Shown here: in pieces, positions 21,337 through 60,838 of the stretch
How positions within the stretch are numbered: the stretch's first letter is position 1
How the letters are laid out: every line of letters starts with the position of its first letter
Origin: Melanopsichium pennsylvanicum
Lineage: Eukaryota > Basidiomycota > Ustilaginomycetes > Ustilaginales
DNA: 64,000 nt
Direction of reading: 5' to 3'
NCBI GenBank assembly: GCA_900208305.1
Contig: OAPG01000007.1
Span: 841,001 to 905,000 of the forward strand
Notes under the pieces: model-generated
Database searches by the model: none
What the model saw: the letters and a program-made list of their open reading frames with translations, nothing else
Told to the model about the DNA's origin: nothing
Program-made: the position numbers and the translations under genes

Positions 21337-24552
<3,216 letters not shown>

Positions 24553-50402: not shown

Positions 50403-52562
50403 ATATGTTGTAGATACTTGTCATTCTTATGCTCACATCGTTCTGTCTATGGTGTTTTTCAATTCGCCTGCTTGCGTCCAACTATCCCAGCAACACATGT
50501 TATCGCATGTTCGACCCCAATCTTTGCAAGTCGGACCCCCTATTTGTGTGAGAAGATTTACAGACGTTGCCCGCAGCACATCGGCCGTAGCCTGCCTTCA
50601 CACTGACCTCGGGAAGCCTTGCATGTCTTTTCATCCGAAGTGCCTGTGTTCTCATGTCTAAGCGAGAAGGATCAGTTCGGTCAGGATGTGGGTGGCCGCC
50701 CCGCTGTTTGCGCGATTTGCCCTTTCCTTCTTTTACAATATGACTTGTAAGGAACAGGTTTTCGCGTCTGCAAGGGATTCTGCGCAGAAGAAGCAACCAG
50801 CAGGTCATCAAATCTGGTTAAAAAAGGGTAGTGTGCGATGAGGGATCAAGGCACCGCCCATTAAGCCACCCAAATGGGGGTGGCTGCTGGAGTGCTGCTC
50901 AAATCCGATTTAGATCTTAATCTGTTGTGGTTCTCAGCTTACCAACAATTATCGGCATGATTTTTGACTCTGTCAGAAGAGAAAATCGCCAAGGCGGCCA
51001 CCCTGATAACCTACAAGGCCATCCAGATTTGAAGAGGTTTTTCAGAGGTCTGATTTCAGTTGTTCGCCTTAAATTTTCGAAACTCTTTTTCCAATATACA
51101 TGTTCCAATGTACATGGATGCCGCTGCTCAAATTTGATGCCGTTTTACCATAGGTTGCTTCTCAATCTCTCGACATATATATCGAAAGGCTCGTCTGTGG
51201 GCTATCGTTCGGAAGCTAGCCTGATACTGATTTCTTCAGTGCCTGTGGAGACTACAGACCCAGCTAGGTACTTGTGAGAATGTGTGTGCCAGGGTTAGTT
51301 ACCATATTTCAATCGAAGTAAATAAGATCAAATTGACCCCCAATTGCGCAGCCGATACCTGCACGCAGATTCGTATTGCACTCACGCAAGCTTGTCCGTA
51401 GGCTGACAAGCAAAGCTCACTCATTCAGCCACCAAATTCGCTAACGCGACAACACTTGTGACAATTGAGTGCAGGACAATTTCAAAAATTGGAGGATCTG
51501 TCTACGTTTCGTACCACAGAATCTGAGCAGCCACCCAGCACAGCGACTTTGTCCCATGTCAGAAAGAAGGCTGCTAGGTTCAAAGCAAATAAAAAATACT
51601 GTGCAAAAGACTCTCGCCTCCAAATTATGAATTGCGCTATGCGGTTGCATGCTAGACCACAGCCCAAATATTTTCGCTTCCGGGTAAGGAAAAGAGTACG
51701 TGTTGGTGGTCCCCTAACATATGCATTGTGCTGATATTTGTGTGAAACTCATGTTTAGACTCAAGCAGACAGCCGTTCTGGCAGCCGCCATCGCAGCCAT
51801 CATAGAAGTCACCACAACACAGCTGAATTCTGAAAGATAGCTGAACGGCACAGCGATTCCGAATGGCTTCTTGGGTGGCCGCTCGATAATACATCCCAGT
51901 GGTGTAGGTTGTTATACCGAAACTTTCTTCTTGAGAACACAGTCTAGTGGCCGTCTCGTCGTATTTTTTCTAAGATCGTTCCGGCAGGGTGGTCTTGTGC
52001 TTTCCAGCTCCCAACATTTATCGAAATCTTTCAGGCTTGACAGTGGGATGACTACTAGTTCTGATCTCCCGGTGGCTCATCGAAATTGGGAGTCGTGTTT
52101 TAAGACAGACGGCACAACAAATATCCATTTGTTCTGCCTTTGAGTAGGGGCAGCCACCGAGGCGCAAGGCTTTACAATGAACGCTGAGTCGAGTCCAACC
52201 GCAATGCTGAACTGGCCATAGACGCACAACCATCATAGTATCAAATCATATGTACTGTGGACTAAATCGAAAGCGTACATCTCGGTCTTCAATAGAAAAA
52301 GAAATAATAGTCGCTCATGTAGGGAAACATGATGAAGACGAATTCGGGCTGCCATCCCCGGATGGGTGGCTTGGGTGGCTTCTTGGGAGATTTCTGCCAG
52401 AACACGTCCAAGCCAGCCGCCTAGTGTGGTAATTTCCATGGCCCACAGGCTGCTGCTCAAATCCAAGCTTCCTTTGATCACGTGCGCATGCTAAGAGCCG
52501 CTCTGGAGTGATTGGGCTGCTAGACCTTTTTGACTTGTCTCCTTGTTTGCGTGTAAGTGATC
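50403..52562. other. Repeat-rich gene-free region, left flank of transposon island
   Basis: No intact gene. Several short diverged repeats occur: CTGCTCAAAT followed by C or T-rich variants at about 50895, 51124 and 52452; GGGTGGCT at 50878 and twice near 52365-52380; and a perfect 8-bp hairpin AGCCACCC...GGGTGGCT with a 6-nt loop at 50864-50885. These look like remnants of one or more old elements. Confidence 0.45.
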
Positions 52563-52564
52563 CG

Positions 52565-52666
52565 GGATATTTTAGGACGACCAAATTCGACTTTTTTGTT
52601 TGCCAAAATTCTCTATAATCATATTTTAAGCTAGCTTTTTGACTTCCGCTTATGGATCTAGCGTGA
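52565..52666 (+). repeat. Dispersed ~100-bp repeat, copy A (CpG retained)
   Basis: Starts GGGATATTTTAGGACGACC. A diverged copy in the same orientation lies at 57417-57515, and a partial relative near 40170. Immediately to the right, 52673-52675 is TTA followed by GGGAGTTTCAGGACGATG, a similar GGG-starting end next to a TTA trinucleotide, as expected of PIF/Harbinger termini. Whole-element boundaries are not resolved. Confidence 0.6.
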
Positions 52667-52838
52667 GTCAAATTAGGGAGTTTCAGGACGATGCGACAGG
52701 CCGTGAGCGAAAATTAAATTTGTCTCATGAGCCAAATTTCATAAGAGCAGGTTTTAATTCCATAAAGCGCTTTTTTGCGGCGCATCATTCTTAGCTCCCA
52801 ATGATTAACTTTCTTTAGCAACTTTCTCAATTTTATTT

Positions 52839-53732
52839 TTGGAGCTAACATGGCTGAAAGGGCCAAAAAACAACTTCTTCCACAAAAAGCTCGTGATTAC
52901 CTGGCTCATATCAATTTTGCACATTAAAAGGCAAGTTAAGACTATCTTAGGGATCATAACCTCTCTACAGAAGCCTCCTGTCCCCCATGACGGTTCAAAT
53001 TCATCTTACTTCAATCTTCGCACTGTTCAGACCCTTGGCAAGAACCCAGGCACTCCAAGAACAAACCTTCTACTCAGAGACACCAACACAGGCAAACCAC
53101 TTTTGATGAGGGTCTCTCCTACTTTGCTTTGCAAGCACAGATTAGCGCGAAAGTTGTCAAAAAAAGGTCATGCAGCATTCCAGAAGCTCAGGAGCATGAT
53201 TCAATTTCAGGAGATTAGGGGCAACTTTGAGCCAGGCATCTACTACAGTGTTGGAGAATCATAGTTGGGGTTCACTGTTGGAAACACACAGAAAAAGACT
53301 GGGGAGGAGGCAAGTAAGCTCCTAAACTTGGCAAAGGATCATAGCAAGAGCTTTTTGCATTCTATCAACACTCTCTTGCCAGCTGAATGGAAGCAAGATA
53401 TGATAGCCAGAAAAAGCAAGTTGAAGGAGTCCATACAGAAGTACTTTGGAAGGCAGGCAGAACTTCTCTGCCCTTGGTGGACCACAGTCACCTTCCTTGA
53501 AGGCTTCACAGGCATAGCACACATGGACAAGGTGGATCACCAGCCCTCTTTCCTGTTCAACTTTTTTGCACCTTGCCTTTTGGTCTTGCACAACTACAAT
53601 CTCAAAGTGGAGCCAGATTGTCTTGACATTGCTATCTTTGTCACTCATTCTTTGGTTCATAGTACACATGCGGTGGCTGGACAGGGTCAGGTAAGGCAAG
53701 CCTTTGTAGCCTTCTTCAGACAAAGCATATGA
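52839..53732 (+). pseudogene. ORF with 2-oxoglutarate/Fe(II) dioxygenase-like pattern, one in-frame stop
   Basis: A single frame of about 298 codons interrupted only by TAG at 53262-53264. No canonical ATG opens it: an ATG at 52850 (MAERAKKQLLP) is in another frame, implying an early frameshift. The last third carries a pattern of the double-stranded beta-helix dioxygenases: HxD as HMD (codons 53520-53528), a hydrophobic strand run (FLFNFFAPCLLVL), a second His 46 residues on in LVHST (53658-53660), and an Arg 12 residues later (53694-53696). Spacing and order fit Fe(II) ligands H, D, H and the 2-oxoglutarate-binding Arg. TET/JBP members of this superfamily are known to be associated with transposons in basidiomycetes. 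Homology is inferred from the pattern, not proven; the surrounding sequence is CpG-depleted. Confidence 0.4.
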
Positions 53733-55247
53733 TTGGACAAGGGTCCATCCCAGCTTGGAAAGCAGCTTCTGGACAAGGTGCTGACAGAGAAAGACAGCAA
53801 CATCAAAGTTTGAGGTGCAAAGAAATGATTCCATGTACATACCACTGTGAAATGCACTATCATCAGAAATTTGTCTTGCAGCTGCAACAGCATTTGAGGA
53901 CAGTTTGAATGGTATCAGCTGGATGGGAATCAGCCCAGGAACACAGCAATTTAAGTTGCTCACCGTCATTGTCTGTGGTTGAGGCACAATTGGGTTGCAA
54001 ACACAACATATCTCATCACTTCAACTTACGCTGCCTTCAAAGTACCACAAGATGATTGTCATGGGTTGCTTGTGCCAGACCCATGGACACCAAAAATTTG
54101 ACTGTACTTGATGAAGTGAGGCTTTGCATACTTTGAGTTGTGTATGTGTGAGCAATTAATGATTTGCACACTTTGAGGGAAATGCACATAAAATGCCTAG
54201 TGCTGACAAATGTTTGCATCCAAGATTGACTGAATCCTGTAGAGCACTGTGCCCAGAGGTAACCTGGCACAACAACTGATACAAAGGCTTGCATGCCTTC
54301 CCTGATGCTCTTGGGGTTGACTGCAAGATACTACAAGGCCCTGGTTGAGGTTCCAGTGCCGCAGTTGGGGTTCCACCTGCAATTGATGTACTGCAGCATT
54401 GGTGATGGTTCCAACAATGATGCTTCTTCTTGAACACTTGTTATCTATGGAGTCAATGCTCTATGATGGTGGCAAGCTCTGCTATTGCCACACAACTGAC
54501 TGACTGGCAACTGTAATGTAAGGTACTGAACAGATAAGAAGATATAGTAAAGAACAGATGAGCTTTGGCTCCTTCTCATTGGCCAGCAATGAGGTATATA
54601 TATCCATCAACTCTTCAGCAAGCTGCCCCTGAGCTACCCTGCTGCATATTCTCCTACAGCCAATGTGGCAGGGCCCTTTCATGTGGACAAGGCGCCAGCA
54701 CTTTGTGTGAAGGCCCAAGCACCATTGTCCCCCTATCTGGCTCCATTGGAGCTTGCACTCTAGTCTGATGGCAACAATGACCATTCCCACAGCATTAATC
54801 ACTCTTCCTGTGGCTGCAATGGTGTTGCTCTATCAATTTGCAGCCTCCTTGCCATTGTCTGGGCTTGGAGCGCAAACATAGCCAAAGAGTTGGCTCTTTG
54901 CATGCATTTGCTCAACATACACAAGCAGCTGGTTCTTTACATATGCTGGGACTTAGAGAAATGCCAACTCCAAGCATGCACAATGCCCATCCCTTTTGCA
55001 TGTGCTGGCTGTGAGAGCGCGCCAAACCCACACCCATTGTGGACCCTGGCCTGCACCTGTAATAATGATAAGCAGACATCTGTTTGAAGATCAAATGGTA
55101 CCAATGTCTCCTCCTATCAATTCTTTCTTCAATATGTCTCTTCAAGCTCTGGTAAATGCACATCTTGGTCCTAGCTGTGAGCTTGAAATGTATGGCAATG
55201 TACATTAAAATTTTGCTGGGGAGATTTTTTGAATTGCATCTCAACTT
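53733..55247. other. CpG-poor spacer inside transposon island
   Basis: 1.5 kb with only short open frames on both strands and no recognisable domain. Minus-strand frames of up to 221 codons overlap the dioxygenase-like ORF in antisense and are not gene-like. Probably decayed element sequence. Confidence 0.4.
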
Positions 55248-56474
55248 TTGAAGGCATGTAGAAGAATTCAACTTGTCACAGCCTTGTCCTTTCCCACCAC
55301 CACCTCCTATACAAACATGCCAACAGGATCAGTTTCAGCAGCACAGCAGCCTCCTGCCAACCTTTTACGCTCCCTCAATGAACAGAGCAGTATTCTAGAC
55401 CTTGAAAGAGAAAGCCAATTGGCAGAGTTGCAATGCTGCAACAACCAACTTGGAATCTGCTGTAGCTCCACAGAGCCCATCAACATCAATTTTTTTGACA
55501 TGTTACAATATAATGTAGAAGACACATCACCAGCAAAACCTGCAGCAGCACATAGGCTAGGGGCAAATTGGTCTGCATGGACCATCTTTGCTTCATTACA
55601 GCTCTTGACACTCACAATCCCTGGATTGCAGCAACAGGAGAGGAAGCCATTGATGAAACCAATAAGCTCTTGCTAAGCACAAGTGTGAGACTTGGAAACA
55701 AGAATTTTTTGAAGCTCAATGGAGAAAGATGGTCAAGGATGCCAGAGAGCATAAGCAGCTTCAATTGAAAGCAATAGGCGCCAATTTTGACAAAGAACAG
55801 GCATATACAACCTTATACAACCTTGTTGACCTGTACAACATCTCAACACACAAACTTTCCTTTCTCAAGCCTCTAGAGATAACTGCCACCCAAATTGCCC
55901 CCACTCAAGATTGTTTGCAAAGACAAAAGTGGAGGCAGGCTGTCAGTGCTGCAAGGGAGGCAGGTCAGACAGGTCAGACTCTTGCTCTTCAAAGACTACA
56001 TGACCAACAATCAGCAAGTGCTTTGCCTTAAAACCACTCACTTGAGGAAAGCCACTCATCATTGGCTGATAATGACTATGATCAGCCAGATGAGTCACAG
56101 TCAAGTTCCTTCACTCAAGAGAGTCCGGTCCAAAGGAGAAGGAAGACTTTGAAAAAACACATTGGTGAAACACTTGTCAAGAGTCTCAATTGAATTATTG
56201 ACCTTCAGGCCATGACAGTCTCTCAAAGTCAACAAAGCCAACTTTTTAGCTCTTATGTGAAGAAGTCAGCCAGATCAAGATGCAGGTCAGTTTGTTGCAG
56301 TCAGACCTGGTAGGGATGAACAAGATGATGGATTCTTTGTTGGCAATATTTGGTCAGCAAGAATCTAGTCAATCTGCTCAAAATATGTACCTAGGGCAGG
56401 TGGGTCCATTTCAAAGTACTCTGAGGTGGTGTTTCCTCTCAAGCATGACAAGGCATTTCAAAGAAGGACAGTAA
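55248..56474 (+). pseudogene. Myb/SANT-like accessory gene of a PIF/Harbinger-type element, frameshifted
   Basis: Pieces of one protein are spread over different plus-strand frames, so at least two frameshifts are present (near 55,565 and 55,735). The middle pieces read like the Myb/SANT-like DNA-binding protein that accompanies many Harbinger-like transposases: a LCFITALDTHNPWIAATGEE helix block with the HNPW core, then WSRM/VKDAREHKQLQLKAIGANF and DKEQAYTTLYNLVDLYN, matching the usual order of HNPF/W, a charged helix, and LLxxLVDL. The C-terminal piece (56280 on) has a MDSLLAIFGQQE-type helix like the tail of such proteins. It converges tail to tail with the transposase gene, the expected partner. 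Confidence 0.5.
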
Positions 56475-57456
56475 CTAGGTAGTCACTGGCAATTGGAGAC
56501 AACAAGAATTTCTGCTGCTGCTTGTTGTTCAGCCAAGGAAAGAGAACAACAACTGAACCAATAGCCCACTCCACTGCAATCTGATACTTGCTCATGATGA
56601 TGTTGGATTGCTTCTCTTCTTCCTTCATACAATTGCCTTTGTATGGCACAATGAGATGATGATCTAAATGGTAGCCTTTGTCACCAAAGAGATATAGCTT
56701 CTTGTTGTCATTCTGGTAGGACGCCTTTCTCAACCAGTGTGCAACTCCTGGCTTGTTCCATACTGAACAATCATTCTTGCTGTCATCCCAGGGTCCTTGG
56801 ACAAAGATCAACCCTTCAGGTGTACTGATAATCTGCATTTTCAATGCATGGATGTGCTTTCAGCTATTATAAACAGCTTCCTGTGCTTGTGATGGTCTTG
56901 CAACTGGCCTAAGGGTGCCATCTACAAACCCCCATATAAGATCCACATTACACTTGGTTTGAATTTGCTCTGCATACTTCTTCAGCTGCTGCCTTGGAAG
57001 AAGAATGTTGCCACATTTGCACACATTGAGAAGGTGGCCCCACTTCTCTAGAAGAAGCTCCACCACTTCCAATTGGACTCTGCTGATGTGAGACTTGGAA
57101 CAGCCAAACTGGGCTTCAAGTCCTTGAAGTGATCTACCCCTGAGGTAACCTAGCAGCATAAGTAGATCAATGCAACTCTCTTCTTTGTCTTGAATGTTGG
57201 TTTTGATGAAAAGCAGGAGCTGAAGGGCTGCATGTGTCTGCTCAAACTCCATATGATCAAGCCCAAGATTGTCTTTGAAGTGCTTGTCAGACATGATTTC
57301 CAAATTGCTGTAATGCTCATGTGATTCTGTGAGCTGGTTGGTATCTTGGACCTGGATTGTATAGTGGTAGCTGATGGCCACCAAAGCAGCTGTGGAGAGG
57401 AGCAATGTATTAAGGGAGGTTTTGGGACAACCAGATTTGACTTTTTTGTGAGCCAA
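56458..57456 (-). pseudogene. PIF/Harbinger-type DDE transposase with one in-frame stop
   Basis: Minus-strand frame of about 330 codons. A helix-turn-helix region (YLRGRSLQGLEAQFGCSKSH) is followed by the DDE nuclease: first Asp in WGFVDGTLRPVARPS, second Asp in LFGDKGYHL, Glu in VEWAIGSVV, with the GPWDDSKND block between. All three catalytic positions are kept. TGA at 56860-56862 interrupts the frame between VYNS and KHIHALKMQ, where the family has a conserved Trp, consistent with TGG to TGA. The frame continues unshifted after it. The first dozen codons overlap repeat copy B, so the true N-terminus is uncertain. One nonsense mutation suggests fairly recent inactivation, or rescue if another copy supplies transposase. 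Confidence 0.75.
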
Positions 57457-57515
57457 ATTTCTCTGTAATCACATTTTTAGCTTTTTGACTTCTGCTCATG
57501 GACCTAGTGTGGCTG
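57417..57515 (+). repeat. Dispersed ~100-bp repeat, copy B (CpG lost)
   Basis: Same orientation as copy A at 52565. Starts GGGAGGTTTTGGGACAACC directly after a TAA trinucleotide. All four CpGs of copy A are TpG or CpA here (positions 57428, 57438, 57493, 57508). Confidence 0.6.
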
Positions 57516-57853
57516 TTGCAGAATAGGACTAGAATAATGGCCAACATCAATGGGATGGCCCAGGTTAGGGTTAGAAAATTACACAAGAAATTGCAATGTG
57601 CAGGCTGGTTGCTGAGTTGAAGCCATCCTAGGAGCCACCTGCAGTTGGCTGGCTCTTTGATGGCTTTGCCAAGAAGCTTGAGCAGCCCTGGAGGTAGCTG
57701 TGCAATTCACATCAAAATTTGATCCACTCTGCGCTCCTGAATCCTTTTAACGCACAAGAGCATGTCAAGTCTGCGTCAATGGCACAGACCTAACACCTCT
57801 ACATTGTTGAAGAGGGTCCTTTCCATCAGATCATAAACCACAAAACCCAACTT

Positions 57854-58657
57854 GTGATGCCTGCAGCTTTGATGCTGTTTATACATCTTGATCTGCGTCC
57901 TGTAGCACAGATCATGGCAACATTGATCATGGCAAAAGCCTATGAACTGTGTTGCACAGCACAGATGATGATTGACGCACGTTCAGGCCGCCAACAGGCT
58001 TGGACCATGTTGTCTAGTGCATCAAGGTATCAAGACTTAGGAGACTATTTTGCTTTCATCTTGTATGATACACCTTATAAATCAACACCATCACAATTCA
58101 GGTCATTTCTCTTCTCATTTCTCTTCCCTCAAGCAAAGCAAGTCTGGTTCCCCAACAAAGCATGTCAAGACACCTTTGATGTGATGCCAACAAACTCAAC
58201 CCAACCATGCTGTTTGCCCTCAATGCTCATCCAATGCAAGAGATTTTACATTGGTGAGTTACTGCACATGGCACTACCACACCAAGAAGCGCTCACAAAT
58301 CTTACCTATCTGCTCCTGTTTGACTGCCCTTCTCTTCACAGTTTTGCCCCCATGATTGTTGCTCAAAACTCTCATCACAACACCAGTCTTGATGATATTG
58401 GCTGCGGTTTTGTTCAGAAAGGTCATGTTGATGTCACAGACGGTAGCATATATGCTGATGCTGTTGGTTACAAATGGTATGGGTTGCACGGTGCTGACAT
58501 CTTGTCCTTGCTTTCTTGTTTTTATATGTCACACTCCCATGCCTTGCGCTTTGCATCCAACATGGCCTTGCTCAATAGTATGTTCAACTCTCCTGTCTTG
58601 CTCACCGTTTTGCATCCCTCTGCAGTTCACCGTACTGACAACTGCCTTTCTCTTTGA
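57854..58657 (+). CDS. Unrecognised 267-codon open frame inside the inverted-repeat unit
   Basis: Opens with ATG at 57854. Met-, Leu-, Cys- and His-rich product without signal peptide, repeats or any motif I recognise. The CpG-poor composition, which removes few stop codons, makes an 800-nt open frame notable but not proof of coding. No intron or partner gene evident. Treat as a hypothetical protein of the enclosing mobile unit. Confidence 0.25.
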   Translation: MMPAALMLFIHLDLRPVAQIMATLIMAKAYELCCTAQMMIDARSGRQQAWTMLSSASRYQDLGDYFAFILYDTPYKSTPSQFRSFLFSFLFPQAKQVWFPNKACQDTFDVMPTNSTQPCCLPSMLIQCKRFYIGELLHMALPHQEALTNLTYLLLFDCPSLHSFAPMIVAQNSHHNTSLDDIGCGFVQKGHVDVTDGSIYADAVGYKWYGLHGADILSLLSCFYMSHSHALRFASNMALLNSMFNSPVLLTVLHPSAVHRTDNCLSL

Positions 58658-58835
58658 CCTTGTCTCAATGTATTGACATCAGCACTCAGATGTTGCCAGT
58701 ACAAGAGCATCCTTACAATTAGATGCAACATCACACAACAAATTGAATCAAGATTGCGCAAGGCTAGTATCAGATGTTACAGACTGTATATGGGATGGAG
58801 CTTGGGCCTGCATATCATGACCACAAGGTCTTACA

Positions 58836-58913
58836 ACATTGTCTTTCAACATTGTCTTTCAACATTGTCTTTCAACATTGTCTCTCAACATCATTGTTCA
58901 ACATTGTCAACAC
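58836..58913. repeat. 13-bp tandem repeat array
   Basis: Six units of ACATTGTCTTTCA; the first three are identical, and later ones diverge (CTCTCA, CATTGTTCA). Confidence 0.9.
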
Positions 58914-59229
58914 TGTCCAGCTTCACTGGAGCATCACAATACAATCTAGAACAAGTGCTTATACAAAATTCAATTATCAAATGAGTGCACAATGCAAGTC
59001 ACAAGTGAGTGTATGAGAGCTGTGAAAGCTAGTTCCAGGGCCAACCTGTGATCAAAATTGATAGCTGGGACAGCGCAGCTTGCATGGCACTTGGACCTGT
59101 GTCAACCAGGTGACCCATTGTTAAGATGCGCAATTCCTCTGTTGTTAAAGCAGGTCTAGGGCTGACAAGCAATGGCTGACCTATAAACTGCATTGGGGGC
59201 GCAGAGTGGACCAAATTTCGATGTGATTG

Positions 59230-59778
59230 TCTCGGTTGACAACAAATTCAAGCATCACTCACTCTGTGGCCCAATGTGAGCTGACCAGTGCAAAACCAAC
59301 CGCCAAGACATGGATTGCTATTCCCACGTTTGATCATGCGCAGGCAGGAGAATGAGCAGCGAACAAAGGGATTCATTGTACGGAGAGCAGCTGAGAAAGT
59401 GCATGACATCTCTGTGGCTGGTGAATCGTGATAAATGCCGCAATTATCTTGCGACCAAAAGACTACACGTTCTCAGACTAGCTCTCGATCACCGGATTGG
59501 AGGCCTTGGTCATGTCGGTCAGGCGCTCCGATGTGACATGGCATGGGTGACGGAACGCAGGATGATGAGCGATAAGGAACACATCACCATTGCACACGAC
59601 ATGATGAATATGCGAAGTGAATGAACAAATACAGATGAGAAACGCATTGATAGCACGTTGAGCGAGATCAGAGAACGAATGCAAGATGATTTGTGTGTGC
59701 AATGTAGCATGAGTGACGCTAGACTTGGTTTTGTGTGAGCATGACTGGTTGGTGTGGTGTTATTGGAAGCGAGGCCGT
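59230..59778. other. 3' flank of eIF2-beta
   Basis: Right edge of the transposon island returning to normal CpG content. A 90-codon frame at 59352-59624 resembles nothing. No gene recognised. Confidence 0.45.
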
Positions 59779-60838
59779 TTAGGCACCTGCGGCAGCCCTG
59801 GTCTTGGAGCGCTTGCCGGTCTGTGCCTGGAAACCGCTCTTGATGGCGCTGACCGAACGTTGGGATCCACACTTTTCGCAAGTGACGAAGAAGATACGGT
59901 TCTCCTTTGTGAGTCTTGTTTCAGGACGCTTGCACGTCTTGCAGATAACGTATTCTGTGATGTATCGTCGGAGCACATTTTCAATCTGCTTTGGCTGGAA
60001 ACGACCACGGATGACGAGACGCTGGGAGCCGTCGACAGAACCGATGGTACCCAACTCGGCAAAGAGAAACTGGATGACGTGCTCTGGTTGACGGTGCATA
60101 CGTTTGCAAATGTCGACGACATTGGCAAAGACTGTCTTCTTGGAACCATCTCGCGCGACCTGAGGAGGCACCATGGTGAACTTTTTCTTGTCTCCGGAGA
60201 GGGCGGGGTTCTGTGCTCGGAGGGTCTTGAATACACGTCCAAGGAGCTCCTGATATGTATAGTCTCGATCTGTGCCCTGCCACGCCTCAACACCGTCATC
60301 GTTTGGTGGTGCTTCAGAGTCTGGTGCTGCTTCTTGAGCGAAAGGGTTGTCTCCGAGCTCTTCTTCGTCGACATGGGCGTATGCGTCGTTTGTGGCTGGC
60401 TCTGCATCGTCTGCTTGTTCATCAGCATCAGCGTCTCCAATTTCCTTTTCGAAAGCGTCGAGGTCGAGTGCGACCTTTTTCTTTGATTTCTTCTTCTTCT
60501 TCAACTCGCCAAACTAAATTGTGTATTAAGAAGAAAGGGAGAAAAGCACATGTTTGAGTGGGGCCATGAACGATTAAGTGGTGGCCATCATGAAATTTGG
60601 GGGTAAGACTCACATTGAGGTCGTCATCTTCTGCAGCGGGCGGATTGGACTGCTCGGCGTCAGCGTCTGGAGTTTGTTTGTTGCTGTCATGGTCAAGTTC
60701 GAGATCGAGGTCAAGCTTCTTCTTGTCCTTCTTCTTCTTCTTGATCATACCACCGAAAAGGTCTGCGGAATCCTGCTGCGGCTCTGCGATACCAGTTCCA
60801 TCGGAAGGGGCGTTTTTGAGAGCGTCAGCGTCTGACAT
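59779..60838 (-). CDS. SUI3: Translation initiation factor eIF2 beta subunit, spliced
   Basis: Beta subunit of the eIF2 GTPase that brings Met-tRNAi to the ribosome; cytosol. Exons 60838-60614 and 60513-59779, with a 100-nt intron (donor GTGAGT, acceptor AATTTAG); 319 aa. The join reads [13 protein letters not shown]. The N-terminal half has two polylysine boxes, [10 protein letters not shown] and [10 protein letters not shown], each followed by an LDLD-type acidic stretch; yeast and human have three such boxes, which bind eIF5 and eIF2B-epsilon. The C-terminal core ([16 protein letters not shown] onward) ends in the C2-C2 zinc ribbon with C266, C269, C287 and C290. Divergent from ATP synthase gamma. 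Confidence 0.93.

Follow-up and report, generated by a model that had tools for sequence, protein, structure and literature searches.

The question raised by this locus is why a transposon-rich stretch in the smut fungus Melanopsichium pennsylvanicum (Ustilaginales) has lost nearly every CpG dinucleotide. The window, that is, the whole stretch of 64,000 nucleotides analysed, corresponds to C7:841001-905000 of an assembly of 21.1 Mb in 61 contigs (C plus a number denotes a contig), and the CpG-poor island lies towards its right end. The explanation that fits best as a whole, and which we consider probable, is that the island was eroded by a methylation-linked C-to-T process confined to transposons. 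In the sampled DNA, CpG is lost from repeats only, with a preference for TCG and in one direction, and the loss has recently acted on young retrotransposons.

The CpG observed/expected ratio (O/E) was 0.00 to 0.29 in all 12 of the 500-bp bins between 52801 and 58800. The reference, 89 genomic bins of 500 bp, came from 10 large contigs, on which 15 stretches of 3 kb were sampled (one bin of Ns was dropped); it had a minimum of 0.60, a median of 0.96 and a maximum of 1.37. The initial annotation had described a CpG collapse in this transposon region, which these values bear out; its limits of 52.56 to 57.53 kb, however, were wrong, and the CpG-poor domain spans about 52.8 to 59.2 kb. By kilobase, O/E was 0.04 to 0.19 at 53 to 59 kb and mostly 0.7 to 1.2 in the remaining window, where 2 of 113 bins fell below 0.6 (0.21 and 0.45). 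GpC was normal in the island, with 402 GpC versus 34 CpG (52801-59200), and TpG plus CpA reached 1.5 to 1.8 times expectation at 53 to 59 kb, as opposed to 1.0 to 1.5 in the other kilobases except 59001-60000 (1.53). The reference excludes five additional samples of 3 kb taken from small contigs rich in AT, with an O/E of 0.79 to 1.11 per whole sample and 0.37 to 1.93 in single bins. These contigs (C30, C36, C42, C50 and C58, sampled at their starts) had a GC content of 27 to 35% in all five cases, with tRNAs on three and a cytochrome oxidase subunit 2-like frame, read by eye, on one, and they look like mitochondrial fragments.

The loss depends on the preceding base. In the island, the share NCG/(NCG+NTG) was 1/449 (0.2%) for T, 14/300 (4.7%) for A, 11/275 (4.0%) for C and 32/225 (14%) for G, whereas in window positions 1-52500 it was 0.43 to 0.49 for all four bases. 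Depleted loci outside the window, found through their similarity to the island or as flanks of such loci, gave the same picture. In 29 bins with O/E below 0.15 (15 loci), the counts were T 6/616, C 8/431, A 11/406 and G 23/317 (shares of 0.010, 0.019, 0.027 and 0.073), and in 25 bins with O/E of 0.15 to 0.35 the shares were T 0.034, A 0.126, C 0.130 and G 0.241. In 310 bins with O/E of at least 0.6, all four contexts lay between 0.435 and 0.491; the TCG signature is thus missing from genes in the sampled DNA. The TCG index defined for Microbotryum (PMC10502011) was 5.8 for the island and -0.17 for window 1-52500, although a 2-kb gene window at 22001 with a coding tandem repeat also scores 2.17. 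Long coding tandem repeats (units of 12 and of 39/78 nucleotides) at 21337-24552 of the window, which are not transposons, produce both a low CpG O/E and a false TCG index; the lowest-CpG kilobase outside the island, at 21 to 22 kb, is such a 12-nucleotide repeat. Pairwise transitions between old copies (CpG 153/416, GpC 203/1331, other C:G 587/2898, some places counted twice) are weak evidence, because a CpG that both copies have lost will often show up as a TG/CA pair.

The same signature marks young retrotransposons, lightly, and the process has therefore been active recently. The RVT_1 profile matched 138 places in the genome, and at 135 of these the matching segment is free of stops. We took 701-base pieces at 36 of these places; since the list of matches was ordered by score, copies with few mutations are favoured. 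Of the pieces, 31 fell into three families with 96 to 100% pairwise identity, and five lone ones were dropped. Over the 1836 alignment columns of the 31 pieces, transitions occurred at 65/304 CpG and 25/714 other C:G positions, beside 11 transversions; columns lacking C and G, where the transition count is zero by definition, were disregarded. Given the ordering of the list and the shared history of the copies, p-values for these data are indicative only. By context they fell at TCG 49/95, CCG 9/80, ACG 6/67 and GCG 1/62, i.e., 49/95 at TCG versus 16/209 at all other CpG positions. The CpG bias that the initial annotation expected across repeat copies was hence recovered, chiefly at TCG. CpA was not the main target, with transitions at TCA 4/63 and other NCA 3/146 versus TCG 49/93. 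Singletons comprised 43 CpG losses, 0 CpG gains and 18 other changes. CpG O/E was nevertheless 0.67 to 1.19 in all 36 pieces and 0.80 to 1.19 in the abundant near-identical retrotransposon repeats, one family of which had at least 27 matches with an identity of 99% or more (40 of 105 candidates were scored, so that copies with heavy mutation may have been missed). In young repeats the process is visible only as TCG differences between copies and would be missed by CpG O/E alone. The initial interpretation is supported in part: recently active, CpG-directed mutation of repeats holds in this form. It had not foreseen the strong preference for TCG, a CpG content close to normal in the commonest repeats or the TET-like gene described below.

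The young copies also bear on three other explanations. Errors of base calling or assembly at modified CpG sites might lie behind the differences between young copies, but they cannot make the old island, in which nearly every CpG is gone and the copies of which differ by transversions as well; we regard this explanation as very improbable. Spontaneous deamination of generically methylated CpG, with no enzymatic preference, would agree with the CpG specificity of the loss and with the presence of a DNMT5 gene. It does not account for TCG 49/95 versus GCG 1/62 in young copies or for the same order in old DNA, and we find it quite unlikely. Ultraviolet light acts on pyrimidine pairs, and solar damage to exposed spores, striking methylated TCG and CCG, would favour TCG. 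However, CCG (9/80) did not stand out as a target over ACG (6/67) among young copies and the two were alike in old DNA, so that there is next to no likelihood of this explanation. A foreign origin or composition of the CpG-poor elements was considered and rejected, since unrelated elements are hit, TpG and CpA are raised and the singleton changes run in one direction.

By its sequence content, the island consists of DNA transposons, dead and nested in one another, and its left half is a broken PIF/Harbinger-type element with a likewise broken, putative TET/JBP-type dioxygenase gene. The features are as follows (window coordinates).

52564-52677, plus strand: copy A, a terminal segment of a PIF/Harbinger-like family, CpGs kept
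52674-52860, plus strand: left terminus of the element that carries the TET-like gene, including a degenerate terminal repeat; homologous to the left end of the C12 derivative
52801-59229, no strand: the CpG-poor island
52992-53825, plus strand: broken TET/JBP-type dioxygenase gene (two TGA, one TAG); 48% identity to residues 46-320 of P0122
56473-56925, minus strand: broken DDE_Tnp_4 transposase domain (one TGA); 76 bits, with a single further match in the genome
56860-57465, minus strand: N-terminal part of the transposase frame; HTH_Tnp_4 at E 0.0012 and 18.8 bits, below the curated 27
57320-57405, plus strand: segment common to short derivatives on C12 and, partly, C6 (93% and 98% identity)
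57413-57511, plus strand: copy B, a terminal segment oriented as copy A, CpGs lost
57707-59229, plus strand: a further inverted-repeat element, unrelated to the first and poor in CpG; copy with 81% identity at C19:514385-516039

Although the TET-like gene and the transposase lie within one island, none of the copies seen is a complete element. The short C12 derivative, with perfect inverted repeats of 18 bp, joins a homologue of 52672-52860 to a homologue of 57320-57405. Because it joins the two sides of the gene and the transposase, these probably once shared one element. The dinucleotides at the element ends were TA/TA on C8 and TA/TG on C12, and TA at the single readable end of two more copies. 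The only other DDE_Tnp_4 match in the genome, C5:1044690-1045082, likewise falls within CpG-poor DNA, close to a contig end. Positions 54037-54327 (minus strand) gave a weak DUF4780 match (E 0.0016, below the cut-off) and belong to a part of the island with about 10 partial copies elsewhere. An Rfam search of the window returned no match.

Copies A and B, in direct orientation, are terminal segments from different insertions of the family. As the initial annotation had stated, copy A has CpG at 52578, 52588, 52647 and 52662, whereas copy B has CA, TG, TG and TG at the matching places. Other copies of the segment retain some of the four CpGs, so CpG is probably the ancestral state at these sites. 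The inverted repeat noted at 57.7 kb is also real (ends at 57707 and 59229), with TCA in its left arm opposite TCG in the right. A sharp boundary to genes had been proposed. In the sampled DNA the loss is confined to repeats, and the right edge, at about 59.2 kb, is the end of the second element. The left edge, however, falls about 130 bases inside the element starting near 52674; it is not a gene border, because 52564-52800 (copy A and the next ~120 bases) is also transposon sequence, yet retains its CpGs.

Confinement to repeats would also be expected of repeat-induced point mutation (RIP) of the Neurospora type, in which duplicated DNA is recognised before meiosis and both copies are heavily mutated in one sexual cycle. 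Consistent with RIP, an element with merely two long copies is affected as well: the 1.5-kb element at 57707-59229 has one other long copy (C19), plus two short fragments (C22 and C9). In addition, short copies of the PIF/Harbinger-like family on C8 (C8:884049-884406 and C8:138953) keep several CpGs (4/4 and 9 in the former), as a length threshold predicts, while longer relatives have lost theirs; this retention could reflect such a threshold or protection of the ends. Against RIP, the commonest repeats are near-identical (at least 27 matches at 99% or more) with an O/E of 0.80 to 1.19, and the context is CpG, not CpA. Strict RIP is disfavoured because young repeats are only lightly touched and because of this context. 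Furthermore, neither of the two genes found by a genome-wide PF00145 search was RID-like in appearance, as judged without a tree including RID. Overall, RIP seems unlikely.

Of the methyltransferases anticipated in the initial annotation, a DNMT5 gene and a DNMT1-like gene were found and a RID-like one was not recognised. One of the two methyltransferase genes is located on C21. The DNMT5 gene is an open frame of 2576 amino acids with a PF00145 methylase followed by an SNF2 ATPase, scoring 1281 bits to 7r76, an entry named Rad8 that we take as DNMT5 on the basis of PMC7862722. The DNMT1-like protein (787 amino acids) has relatives in other Ustilaginales and its best matches in the PDB are DNMT1; 4 of 7 homologues gave a weak BAH match (best E 0.005). 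As described in PMC7862722, the BAH-plus-methylase enzyme DNMTX is a de novo methylase in Kwoniella, and by analogy the M. pennsylvanicum DNMT1-like protein may play a comparable part. U. maydis is reported to be without the methyltransferases (PMC7862722).

The transposon-confined, methylation-linked process may accordingly be pictured in steps. CpG methylation of transposons would be kept by DNMT5 and possibly started by a BAH-DNMT1-like enzyme; stepwise deamination over many generations, rather than a single RIP pass, would then hit TCG soonest, ACG and CCG at a slower pace and GCG least of all.

The TET-like gene may represent the opposing side. Its family matched Naegleria Tet in a profile comparison (E 4e-5), and Pfam Tet_JBP matched 3 of 12 family members. 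The first 21 Foldseek matches to the predicted family structure were to TET or CMD1, which suggests a TET/JBP fold. H220, D222, H266 and R277 of P0122 are invariant or nearly so among the 12 members; the HxD motif, the distal His and the Arg are thus conserved, and we take them to be active-site residues. The island copy has HMD aligned to the HxD position. A Tet_JBP profile search of the genome itself gave one weak match (E 0.09), outside the island, and a PDB search with the broken island piece alone gave no TET and one chance match. With a predicted activity of 5-methylcytosine oxidation, the dioxygenase may once have countered methylation of the transposon until its own gene decayed. We propose such a counter-defence because PMC12730594 suggests this role for transposons in rusts. 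With its CpGs eroded, the TET-carrying relic resembles the defeated party in an arms race.

Several points weigh against the account as a whole. A biased enzyme must be assumed, because generic spontaneous decay of methylated cytosine alone gives no such TCG preference, and copy A and some short C8 copies keep CpGs despite being repeats. For the TET-like gene, Tet_JBP found no match in 9 of 12 relatives, the island piece reached 13.5 bits where the Pfam cut-off is 34.9, and the structure model is of low confidence, with a mean predicted local distance difference test score (pLDDT) of 52.6.

Compared with known systems, the process resembles Neurospora RIP in being a C-to-T change confined to repeats, and differs from it in targeting CpG rather than CpA, in the lack of a recognised RID-like gene and in the slight effect on young repeats. 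The available text of PMC5106213 (eLife 2016) reports CpG-poor repeats in Ustilago hordei, U. bromivora and, less so, M. pennsylvanicum; this is the same phenomenon in partly the same species, treated there as dinucleotides only, with RIP suggested and without context, timing or a counter-gene. In U. hordei long terminal repeat (LTR) retrotransposons, 91% of changes were transitions, with methylation suggested as one possible cause (PMC9603552). RIP-like C-to-T hypermutation of repeats at TCG is described for Microbotryum and other Pucciniomycotina including Puccinia (PMC10502011, PMC4352252, PMC12730594). M. pennsylvanicum shares with them the C-to-T change in basidiomycete repeats and the TCG preference, but it belongs to another subphylum, has also lost ACG and CCG in old copies and displays recent action between near-identical copies.

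In the open-licence literature we found no report of a TCG preference or of TET-carrying transposons in Ustilaginomycotina. The present analysis adds the TCG context of the loss, its recent action in a smut and, in the same genome, the relic of a PIF/Harbinger-type element that carries a TET-like gene. More speculatively, and with less than even confidence, smuts may represent a third basidiomycete subphylum with a live, TCG-directed, methylation-linked mutator, in which a TET/JBP PIF/Harbinger clade arose as counter-defence and was destroyed in M. pennsylvanicum, and the mutator now confronts young LTR retrotransposons, none of which is known to bear a gene of this kind. With the TCG signature, the TET-carrying relic and two methyltransferase genes in one smut, the link between methylation, TCG mutation and counter-defence would become testable by gene deletion. 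TET-carrying transposons are described in rusts, mushrooms and truffles, among them the TET+ PHISTA (Harbinger) elements of rusts, in PMC12730594, the main text of which contains no occurrence of "Ustilag" or "smut". Unlike TET+ PHISTA, the M. pennsylvanicum element occurs in Ustilaginales, is broken, belongs to a TET-like family most members of which Pfam does not reach and has been assigned to none of the PU, AG and PE types; like it, the element probably combined a PIF/Harbinger-type transposase with a TET/JBP gene. TA stands at both ends in one of the two fully readable derivatives.

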